Assembly (NCBI RefSeq): GCF_002119765.1
Contig: NZ_CP021112.1
Coordinates: 4,396,501-4,460,500 of the forward strand
Direction of reading: 5' to 3'
Length of the DNA stretch: 64,000 bases
From: Pseudorhodoplanes sinuspersici
GTDB lineage: Bacteria > Pseudomonadota > Alphaproteobacteria > Rhizobiales > Xanthobacteraceae
Numbering within the stretch: position 1 is the first letter of the stretch; every line of letters begins with the position of its first letter. Shown here one piece after another: positions 42,603 to 47,952 of the stretch. The notes under the pieces were generated by a model. The model made no database searches, was not told the origin of the DNA, and saw nothing but the letters and a program-made list of their open reading frames with translations. Position numbers and translations under genes: made by a program.

Positions 42603-43004
42603 CTACAGCCCCTTAGCCTTGATCTTCGTTTTCTTCGTCGCTGCGAGCAGTCGCTCGTCAGCGGTAATGAGCGTTGCGGCTTCGCGCTCGGCCAGCGCCA
42701 GATAGAAGCAATCGTAGATCGGATGCCGCAGGTCCGTCGCAAAGGCCAGCGCGGGCGTCATCAAATCCTCGACGGGTAAAAGCCGATGATAGTGCGCAAC
42801 GACGATTTTGAGCGCGTGCTGTGCGTCGGCCGCGTTCATGTCGCCCCGCATCGCGCTTTTCCAGATGGCATTGCCAATCTCGGCGATCACAAGCGAAGGC
42901 GCGATGATGTCGGTGTCGCTGGTGCGAAGCAGTGCGGCCTTGTTTGAATCGGCTTCAGGCAAAACCCATTTTACTGCCACGCTGGCATCGACAATCAGCG
43001 TCAT
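42603..43004 (-). CDS. vapC: PIN-domain toxin (VapC-type)
   Basis: A 133-aa PIN-domain ribonuclease, toxin of a type II toxin-antitoxin pair. The acidic metal-binding residues are in place: Asp6 (LIVDASV), Glu42 (LVIAEIGNAIW), Asp98 (HPIYDCFYLAL) and Asp116 (LITADERLL). Length is normal. Its start overlaps the antitoxin stop by four bases, so the toxin is made only when the antitoxin is translated. Confidence 0.93.
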   Translation of the reverse strand: MTLIVDASVAVKWVLPEADSNKAALLRTSDTDIIAPSLVIAEIGNAIWKSAMRGDMNAADAQHALKIVVAHYHRLLPVEDLMTPALAFATDLRHPIYDCFYLALAEREAATLITADERLLAATKKTKIKAKGL

Positions 43005-43243
43005 CGATACCGTTCGTCATTGTCGCGCCACTCCCTGATATCGGCCGTGGAGTCGCCTGTGACCTTCCCGATCTTTTGACGCAAGCGATCGGCCTCAGCC
43101 CAGGCTTCTTCCTTGCTGGGCTTCGCGGCTGCAGTCAGCGCCTCGCGGGCAATCTCGCTCACCGACTTGCCCTCGGCCTTCGCCTTTTGCTTCAGGCGGT
43201 CGGCGGTCGCCTGATCGACGTTGCGGACCAGAATGTCCACCAT
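43001..43243 (-). CDS. vapB: Ribbon-helix-helix antitoxin (VapB/FitA-type)
   Basis: An 80-aa antitoxin. MVDILVRNVDQATADRLKQKAKAEGKSVSEIAREALTAAA is an RHH DNA-binding domain of the FitA type; the C-terminal SADxLRQKIGK-like helix and charged end would wrap around the PIN toxin. A strong ribosome binding site (AGGAGG) precedes the ATG. It is divergent from the structured RNA element at 43.3 kb. Confidence 0.92.
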   Translation of the reverse strand: MVDILVRNVDQATADRLKQKAKAEGKSVSEIAREALTAAAKPSKEEAWAEADRLRQKIGKVTGDSTADIREWRDNDERYR

Positions 43244-43312: not shown

Positions 43313-43341
43313 TTGACAATATTCCTATAAGCAAATAATCC
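43313..43341 (+). promoter_or_regulatory. Sigma70-like promoter of structured RNA element A
   Basis: TTGACA (43313-43318), a 17-base spacer and TAATCC (43336-43341). The same -35, the spacer start ATATTCCTATAA and a TAGTCC -10 recur at the same distance before element B (47433-47461). Flanking DNA outside is unrelated, so the promoter is part of the repeated unit. Start is predicted near 43348, at the foot of the first hairpin. It is back to back with the vapBC -35. Confidence 0.7.
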
Positions 43342-43347
43342 TATATC

Positions 43348-43757
43348 CGCTCGCCCCAAGCGAGGGACGTTCTGCAGGACGTTGCTGGATGGGGGTGAGT
43401 GCGGCGCCCGCGGGTGAGGCTCGTCACCTCACACTCGGGCGGTGCCGGGGCTCCGCCCGGGACCACTAAGAGTCCCTGCCAGGAGCTGGCTGACACGGGC
43501 CTCGTTTCGATACGAGGTCCGCGCGAAGCGCGGCCCGGCACTGGTTAAACGTCGCGGTGGAGCGCTGGAAGGCGGGGTGTCCCGATCGCAAGGGACGCCG
43601 ACGCCAAGGCGCATTGGACGCCGCGCAAGCGGTGGAGGATGCGTCGCGGCGTAGTGAAAAGGAACAGCGCCTTCCGGCGCTCCACTCCCTCGCACATCAC
43701 ACGCACCGGGTGTTTCCGGTGCGTGCCAAGACGCATGCCGGGTGTTCCCGGCATGCG
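43348..43757 (+). ncRNA. Repeated structured RNA, element A
   Basis: A 575-base gap without a gene folds into an ordered set of helices also present at 47468. These are CTCGC/GCGAG (43350-43364); ACGT/ACGT (43367-43382); GAGTG/CACTC enclosing TGAGG/CCTCA (43397-43436); a long-range GTGCCGGG/CCCGGCAC (43442-43449 with 43534-43541) enclosing CCAG-GAG-CTGG and CTGACACG; and a 17-bp helix 43558-43574 with 43668-43684 enclosing GTCCC-GATCGCAA-GGGAC. Two further strong hairpins end at 43724 and 43757. Against element B, several pairs change on both sides while loops are kept. Orphan relatives of HNH-associated (HEARO/omega) RNAs are one possible identity, unproven. Confidence 0.72.
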
Positions 43758-45427: not shown

Positions 45428-45463
45428 AGGGTGGGTTACGCGCCTTCGGCGCCAACCCACCCT
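45428..45463. terminator. Hairpin between convergent genes, repeat-type terminator
   Basis: AGGGTGGGTT and AACCCACCCT (10 bp) enclose GCGCCTTCGGCGCC, itself a hairpin. It lies six bases after the FKBP stop and eight before the end of the convergent DUF6455-like gene. No T-run follows. A related AACCCATC hairpin closes the next convergent pair at 46475, so this is a repeat family used at convergent ends. Confidence 0.6.
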
Positions 45464-45927: not shown

Positions 45928-46064
45928 CCGCGCAAGCGCGACGGCAAAAAAGTGTAGGATTGACGAAGGCGCATGCGGATCGGCGGCTTCGCAACGTTTA
46001 TCATCGGGCCGCGCTTCGCGTAGAGCCGTTGGCTCAATCGACCCAACGTGCATAGGGATCAACC

Positions 46065-47432: not shown

Positions 47433-47461
47433 TTGACAATATTCCTATAAGGATATAGTCC
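47433..47461 (+). promoter_or_regulatory. Sigma70-like promoter of structured RNA element B
   Basis: TTGACA (47433-47438), a 17-base spacer beginning ATATTCCTATAA and a -10-like TAGTCC (47456-47461), matching the promoter of element A in both hexamer positions and in the left half of the spacer. Transcription would begin near 47468, directly at the first conserved hairpin. Confidence 0.7.
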
Positions 47462-47467
47462 TAACGC

Positions 47468-47915
47468 CGCTCGCCCCAAGCGAGGGCCGTTCTGCACGAC
47501 GGAACCGGACGGGGGAGTGCCGCGCCCGCGGGCCTGGCTTCGTCAGCCGGGCACTCGGACGGTGCCGGGGTACGCGCAAACAAGTTTACGCAGTTTGCGC
47601 AAGCGCAACTGCTATGCCGGAGTTACTAGGGACCCCTGCCAGGAGCTGGCTGACACGTGCTTCGACCCAAAGCCGAGGTGCGGGGTAAAGCGCGGCCCGG
47701 CACCTGATAAATCGGCGCTGTGGAACGCTGGAAAGGCGGGACGCCCGATCGCAATGGGCGTCGATGCTGAAGCATGCGGGCGGCGTTAGCTTTCGTCGAC
47801 TGTCTGTGAAAGCGTCTGTGAGAACGGTGCCTTCCGGCGCTCCATGCCCTCGCACGTTTAACAACGCCGCCGGTGGTCGGGCGAGCGGGAGATCGCGCAT
47901 GCGCGTTGTTTTTTT
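47468..47915 (+). ncRNA. Repeated structured RNA, element B
   Basis: The second copy of the element at 43348, between the HxlR gene and a leftward PRC-barrel gene, in a 558-base gap without a gene. Helices: CTCGC/GCGAG (47470-47484); CCGT/ACGG (47487-47502, A-U in A replaced by C-G here); GAGTG/CACTC enclosing CCTGGC/GCCGGG (47533-47551; a different sequence from A with the same fold and GTCA loop); long-range GGTGCCGGG/CCCGGCACC (47561-47569 with 47696-47704); a long helix 47721-47737 with 47829-47844; and CGCCC-GATCGCAAT-GGGCG. B has an extra insertion (TACGCGCAAACAAG onward) where A has a short GGGAC hairpin. It ends with AACAACGC/GCGTTGTT and a T-run to 47915, a likely terminator. Confidence 0.73.
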
Positions 47916-47952
47916 ACGACATCAAGCGGCGCGGAGCCGCCTTCCGTATCGT

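Follow-up and report, generated by a model that had tools for sequence, protein, structure and literature searches.

Dispersed, multi-copy elements with a conserved RNA fold and a changing palindromic loop in Pseudorhodoplanes sinuspersici and related bacteria

The window studied here, a stretch of 64,000 nucleotides from the genome of Pseudorhodoplanes sinuspersici, contains two intergenic elements on the + strand, which we call A (43313-43757) and B (47433-47915), and which lie where the initial annotation had placed them. The nine genes around these elements, when scanned against Pfam, encode PIN, RHH, FKBP, DUF6455-like (an assignment that falls below the cut-off), MAPEG, GFA, HxlR and PRC-barrel proteins, along with one protein without a family. 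Directly upstream of A, on the - strand (42603-43243), are a PIN-domain gene and a FitA-like RHH gene, a probable toxin-antitoxin pair. Two short stretches of the window, 45430-45463 (97% over 34 bp) and 45996-46035 (92-93% over 38-40 bp), recur in relatives and are probably REP-like palindromes.

Element A begins with a promoter-like sequence (43313-43339), recognised from its letters and from the genome count of TTGACAAWATTCCTA reported below, in which TTGACA and AATAAT are separated by 15 nt and accompanied by the operator-like halves TTCCTATA. The 5' domain (43349-43400) follows, where the stem P1 (43349-43357 with 43392-43400) surrounds a hairpin; this arrangement is supported by our 5'-domain model R3, by the predicted fold and by covariation in 29 sequences. 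The loop hexamer of the hairpin, CUGCAG (43372-43377), is self-complementary, and on the basis of the loop-palindrome test we propose it as a kissing loop. The core (43401-43542), which our core model R1 recognises at 136.9 bits (E 1.1e-18), consists of five helices, four of which show double-sided changes among the copies. In the predicted fold, GCGGCG at 43401-43406 pairs with CGUCGC at 43550-43555, forming a long-range helix that closes the core. Next comes the long helix (43556-43686), found by the longest-helix scan and by folding, whose arms 43556-43574 and 43668-43686 form 19 bp with variable hairpins inside. To its 3' side lies the conserved CCCUCGCAC (43687-43695), identified in the alignment of A with B. 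Finally, two terminal hairpins discerned by eye at 43700-43757 (43700-43725 and 43732-43757) take the place of the 3' pseudoknot found elsewhere.

Element B repeats this arrangement with several departures. Its promoter-like sequence (47433-47459; TTGACA, 15 nt, TATAGT) is identified by sequence, by the TTGACAAWATTCCTA count and by promoter scoring, and its 5' domain (47470-47519) by R3; the loop, CUGCAC (47492-47497), proves not to be self-complementary in the loop test. The core (47519-47704; R1 87.2 bits), also placed by alignments, has one of its hairpins enlarged by an insertion of some 40 nt. The long helix (47720-47845), placed by sequence, fold and helix scan, is imperfect: the longest-helix scan finds no long run, and A-C mismatches are visible by eye. 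The element ends with CCCUCGCAC and a possible terminator with a T run, assigned by eye (47847-47916), which a terminator scan to 48000 does not list. B departs from the conserved features in the palindromic loop, in the long helix and in one pair of the first core helix. The fold of A is far better than the folds of its own shuffles (z -6.3, with 0 of 100 shuffles as good), and that of B is not (z -1.36, 11 of 100).

The two elements align over approximately 470-520 bp, and the order of promoter, P1 hairpin, core, long helix and CCCTCGCAC is common to both. Across the window, R1 yields the two cores as its only strong matches, with two more rows at E 0.12 and 0.96, and R3 yields 43350-43399 and 47470-47519, with one more row at E 1.5. 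A tree built from 57 copies places A and B as sisters, supported at 100/97. Judged by these sequences, A and B are diverged sister copies of one structured RNA.

In order to assess structure beyond this pair, we compared pairing in alignments of many copies with pairing in shuffled controls. The core alignment, A2, contains 30 sequences picked from 49 segments that were found by regular expression, some of these segments being unrelated or duplicates. Over its 29 pairs, 96.9% of cells are paired, compared with 82.9 +/- 0.7 in shuffles, and 118 cells are changed on both sides; shuffles give 29.5 +/- 4.3 such cells, slid controls 4-11. Double-sided changes occur at 17 of the 29 pairs, and the first core helix is without any. 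For the 5' domain (29 sequences) the corresponding values are 85.1% versus 73.9% paired, and 64 double-changed cells versus 26.3, with 5-29 in slid controls; in its outer stem, 78.6% of cells pair. Where columns pair, G-U is more frequent than A-C in each of three alignments, by 39:5 (cores), 57:20 and 185:40, and this excess marks the + strand as the RNA strand.

Helices outside these domains vary in how well they can be followed. A helix of at least 12 pairs lies 3' of the core in most copies scanned, but not in B. The pairing GCGGCG/CGCYGC does not rise clearly above chance across copies: the mean gives p 0.17 and the number of full pairs, 7 of 16 versus 5.0, gives p 0.04, several of the misses being extraction errors. 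At the 3' end, 24 tails form an H-type pseudoknot, GGCG..CCCG.CGCC..AAACAA.A.CGGG, with 97.4% of cells paired versus 89.8%, and its pair CCCG/CGGG changes to CCCC/GGGG; these tails were chosen for showing the pseudoknot, and copies without it, including A and B, were left out, so that its frequency cannot be read from this set. Many copies end in a covarying 3' pseudoknot. Two copies in the genome G007, L065 and L066, have extra hairpins inserted in the 5' domain, and L066 has kept TTGACA though most of its spacer sequence has been replaced.

The initial annotation had described two gaps with the same order of parts and had quoted pairs that differ on both sides between A and B; the alignment of A with B agrees with the former, and the quoted changes are present. 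It had concluded that this is a repeated long RNA under selection on its structure, on the strand named, and had proposed a search for covariation in a larger alignment. Such an alignment does show an excess, in the core, in the 5' domain and in the pseudoknot, and the G-U excess falls on that same strand.

REP/BIME and other palindromic intergenic repeats are dispersed, intergenic, hairpin-rich and non-coding; their unit is a short DNA palindrome that a Y1 (RAYT-type) transposase moves. Our elements resemble them in the first four respects, and one might suppose that they too are only a DNA-level repeat, whose differences arise by random divergence or hairpin-templated correction. This is very improbable, given that the elements are hundreds of bases long, with units of about 470 bp, that covariation extends to a long-range helix and loops are conserved, that the G-U excess singles out one strand, and that the promoter-like sequence stands near a fixed place at the 5' end. 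As a specific candidate, a Y1-driven REP repeat was rejected on the length of the unit and because Y1_Tnp was not found in P. sinuspersici.

A further feature of the family is the loop that tips the 5' hairpin. Its six bases are complementary to themselves in 90.8% of cells, compared with 63.2 +/- 3.1 in shuffles, and 27 cells are double-changed, compared with 7.1. The 84 matches to R3 represent 36 distinct hairpins, of which 34 contain a palindromic hexamer (the null averages 3.6 and peaks at 10 in 2000) and two, L412 and L435, do not. Since the loop columns of R3 were trained on such loops, we repeated the test on copies found through their core. Here 28 of the 29 different loop windows contain a palindromic hexamer (shuffles average 6.7 and reach at most 15 in 2000), the exception being element B; in other windows of the same elements such a hexamer occurs in 335 of 1678. 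The loop hexamers of the core-found copies are UCAUGA, UCCGGA, UCGCGA, UCUAGA, CUGCAG, CUUAAG, CUCGAG and ACCGGU. Because the two central bases of the loop cannot pair with one another in a single molecule, an intermolecular kissing contact is the simplest reading, and a palindrome that changes from copy to copy suggests a kissing-loop homodimer.

The loop hexamer (H1) is also partly complementary to a downstream segment (H2), with a mean of 4.45 pairs versus 3.74, a value reached in 0 of 5000 shuffles. The centre pairs form in 35 of 66 distinct combinations (13.3 expected) and full pairing in 11 (3.8 expected), and the exceptional, non-palindromic hexamers UUGAGA and UCACGA are both fully complementary to H2. 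This partial complementarity means that a cis hairpin or switch could explain part of the constraint on the loop. One may go further and attribute the palindrome entirely to an alternative H1-H2 hairpin, that is, to a folding switch and not to dimerisation; we regard this as a tentative alternative, since such a switch requires no self-complementary H1, yet nearly all of the distinct R3 hairpins have one, and since only a sixth of the combinations pair in full. The kissing contact and the cis hairpin may, moreover, be two states of one switch.

For the analyses of promoters, gene context and descent we assembled 62 elements. In 56 of them we placed the 5' domain by hand, guided by GAGGG-like positions, and 57 are in the tree. 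A TTGACA/TATAAT-like pair with at least 9 of 12 matches is found upstream of P1 in 42 of the 56 copies, compared with 5.2 expected from shuffles, mostly 2-9 nt before the stretch taken as P1; in the other 14 a good match is absent. The promoter that had been proposed for A is matched by a promoter-like sequence in most copies. The pentamer TCCTA or its complement TAGGA occurs in 44 of the 56 copies, against 6.3 expected, which suggests a common operator. For A and B the best -35/-10 pair has a spacer of only 15 nt, and a generic promoter scan, with spacings of 16-18 nt, gives no + strand site at either promoter and one - strand site overlapping that of B.

Among the 62 elements, the upstream gene lies on the strand of the element in 31 cases and on the opposite strand in 30, whereas for the downstream gene the counts are 39 and 18. 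This downstream bias leaves room for a cis role, and would be expected if the element were a leader or terminator of the gene that follows it. As a general account we find that improbable: the elements have a promoter-like sequence of their own, few flanking genes are common to different copies, and in those 18 copies the next gene faces the element. A trans-acting RNA fits the gene context best, and a cis role is possible for some copies.

The elements are numerous in their own genome and patchily distributed beyond it. In the 5.97 Mb of P. sinuspersici, a DNA search gives 11 strong matches, A and B included, the rest being short or weak pieces; R1 likewise gives 11 matches. The string TTGACAAWATTCCTA, allowing at most one mismatch, has 9 sites in this genome and 12 in G007, and its reversed controls have 0. 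Six of the 9 sites begin elements with the core, and two begin elements with another body (L076 and L088), to whose 5' domains R3 gives no more than 22.6-22.7 bits (E 0.009). The last site, L078, has a 5' sequence related by eye, which R3 does not match at E up to 1; its promoter string and hairpin-like stretch (1501-1650, by eye) lie upstream of what appears by eye to be a MucR/Ros-like regulator gene. In G007 at least one site (L092) is without an element.

L076 and L088 belong to a second kind of large element with a different body, of which L481-L483 in G005 and L073 and L077 in G007 are further examples. Most of these carry the same promoter string, and their 5' hairpins are weakly similar (R3 18-23 bits, E 0.009-0.07). 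L481 shares 95% identity with L482 across 509 bp, 90% with L483 and, across 154 bp, 84% with L088; L481, L482 and L483 have a 3' tail in common.

By DNA search, 15 of 41 genomes are positive when P. sinuspersici is counted, including all 8 of the genus. With R1 (E up to 1e-5), the core occurs in 83 of 248 genomes of the bacterial family, in 26 of 47 genera, and with R3 (E up to 1e-3), the 5' domain occurs in 119 of 248 genomes, in 32 of 47 genera; copy counts from both models refer to a limited number of scored candidates per genome. In an order-wide sample, R1 matches 3 of 297 genomes, two of which are within the same bacterial family. A sequence-pattern search of genome contigs returned mostly chance matches, R1 being clear in 11 of 120 among the matches listed, with the weak L227 and L187 not counted. 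Named records with core matches are from Pseudolabrys, Pseudorhodoplanes and Rhodopseudomonas, together with two contigs labelled Rhizobium sp. Q54. Since the core is present, at this threshold, in only about a third of the genomes of its bacterial family, it is not essential to the group.

Copies at different sites can be nearly identical. In G007, identity reaches 96-99% along about 470 bp among L059-L062, whose common unit begins at the -35, and L065-L068 are 94-98% identical. L059 and L068 also share about 270 bp of upstream flank, for a total of 743 bp at 84.8%, and other near-identical copies of G007 have no common upstream flank of this sort. At the site of L062, the distance between the same flanking matches is 775 bp in G007 and 248 bp in the relative G003, where neither R1 nor R3 finds a match; the intergenic flanks do not align, so that the insertion site is not readable at base level. 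The match to this site in P. sinuspersici (L485, G000:C1:1790700-1796200) spans about 5.0 kb versus 1.7 kb in G007, measured between corresponding matches, and R1 and R3 have no match in it. On the tree of 57 copies, genome labels require 9 changes, compared with 36.5 in shuffles and a least possible number of 6. There are also elements that stand in the same orientation beside flanking genes common to different species, the best cases being L068/L367, L376/L384 and L065/L363, and these suggest long persistence of sites. Spread or homogenisation within genomes thus seems to go together with some long-lived sites. In G003, L358 has the upstream gene of one G007 copy and the downstream genes of another (L066 and L068), as would result from a chromosomal rearrangement by inter-copy recombination.

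These patterns bear on the possibility that we are dealing with a selfish, non-autonomous mobile element with an RNA that works solely towards its own propagation, for example by recruiting a transposition enzyme, and does nothing for the host. The near-identical copies found at separate sites, the empty L062 site in G003, the patchy and genome-clustered distribution, and a unit that starts at the -35 in four copies of G007 would all be expected of such an element. Yet inspection by eye showed neither inverted termini nor target duplications, the Y1 transposase (Y1_Tnp) occurs in 3 of 7 carriers and was not found in P. sinuspersici itself, some sites appear to have persisted between species, and the promoter-like sequence has been kept in most copies. 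We consider a purely selfish element unlikely on balance, and prefer an independently transcribed RNA that acts in trans.

Element A has no blastn match in phage and plasmid collections. Of 79 viral stretches containing a first pattern, one (L314) has a clear core, and of 10 containing a second pattern, L306 has two weak cores. The record of L314 (L409) includes head and tail genes, and L306 has phage-type transposition genes. The copies in these two phage-like viral contigs, at 999-1142 of L409 and 2542-3251 of L306, are 93.6% identical over 250 bp. Beside the L409 copy is an IS1595-type transposase fragment, which makes a host flank likely.

No family of Rfam 15 matches the elements at gathering scores, nor did a scan of the window give a match; scans of the copies recovered a tmRNA and a TPP riboswitch, which lie beside the elements. 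The initial annotation had named HEARO or omega RNAs as possible relatives, while pointing out that no IscB/IsrB-like gene is adjacent, and a guide RNA of an IscB, IsrB or TnpB nuclease would indeed be a large structured RNA within a dispersed repeat (RF02033). The second remark agrees with the Pfam scan of the nine neighbouring genes, which gives no IscB/IsrB-type nuclease. The kinship finds no support: HEARO is absent both from the ten rows that A gives when E is allowed up to 10, every one of them well under its cut-off, and from the Rfam search of L059 at E up to 2. No variable guide segment is visible by eye, and the elements have their own promoter-like sequence, unlike HEARO/omega RNA. 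A search for the RRXRR family was positive in 0 of 7 genomes, a weak negative since 0 of 14 controls gave a signal. We therefore regard a HEARO-like or omega-type RNA as extremely improbable. The repeated RNA of the initial annotation, with its promoter-like sequence, its strand and the selection on its structure, is supported. Four things had escaped that annotation: the self-complementary loop, the pseudoknot with which other copies end, the presence of 11 copies in this genome, and a distribution that is patchy and clusters by genome.

The Pfam scan of the nine neighbours gives no reverse transcriptase, such as would accompany a group II intron or retron RNA. The sRNA BjrC68 (RF02353) was rejected with 10.5 bits on A and 15.4 on L059 against a cut-off of 39; it is a non-coding RNA of related bacteria, the Bradyrhizobiaceae, and has a weak 28-nt reverse-strand match on some elements, but the loci that exceed the cut-off are at other places, a single one per genome in 6 genomes. 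Searches of open-licence articles in PMC listed none whose title or abstract opening describes this RNA family, and none of six alphaproteobacterial names turned up in a term search of PMC11109978. The family of large folded RNA genes represented by A and B is apparently undescribed.

An analogy may be drawn with GOLLD, ROOL and OLE, large bacterial RNAs of elaborate structure, which are described in PMC12286853 as homo-oligomers stabilised in part by kissing loops, with covariation supporting the intermolecular contacts. Our RNA may work like one of these. Our elements differ in having no Rfam match to these families, in being chromosomal, multi-copy and mainly confined to one alphaproteobacterial family, and in that their proposed contact would be a single changing palindromic loop.

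Our preferred interpretation, to which we assign a probability of roughly 55%, is that A and B are copies of a family of independently transcribed, folded RNAs that dimerise through their loops and act in trans. An RNA of approximately 350-480 nt would be transcribed from its own promoter and would act, as RNA, on some presumed target. Its 5' hairpin would display the self-complementary hexamer, such that two molecules kiss and form a homodimer, and subtypes with different hexamers would for the most part find partners of the same subtype. A conserved scaffold would be provided by the core and the long helix, and the pseudoknot would cap the 3' end in many copies. The DNA units would multiply in their genome, through duplication or transposition, and be homogenised or replaced there, so that copies cluster by genome. 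As to the role of such an RNA, a scaffold or decoy is most likely, though this is a guess. A bolder and rather doubtful version holds that these are mobile RNA genes with a private palindromic loop code, whereby each genome maintains several orthogonal homodimeric subtypes and the RNA controls the number or spread of the element, or serves as a decoy against invaders.

The near-identical dispersed copies pose the question of how an RNA gene that carries its promoter moves without a gene of its own. A loop that changes, and yet is nearly always self-complementary, offers a cheap test of private homodimer codes in natural RNAs. If our interpretation is correct, these elements would add a multi-copy, fast-evolving class to the few classes of large structured RNA in bacteria.
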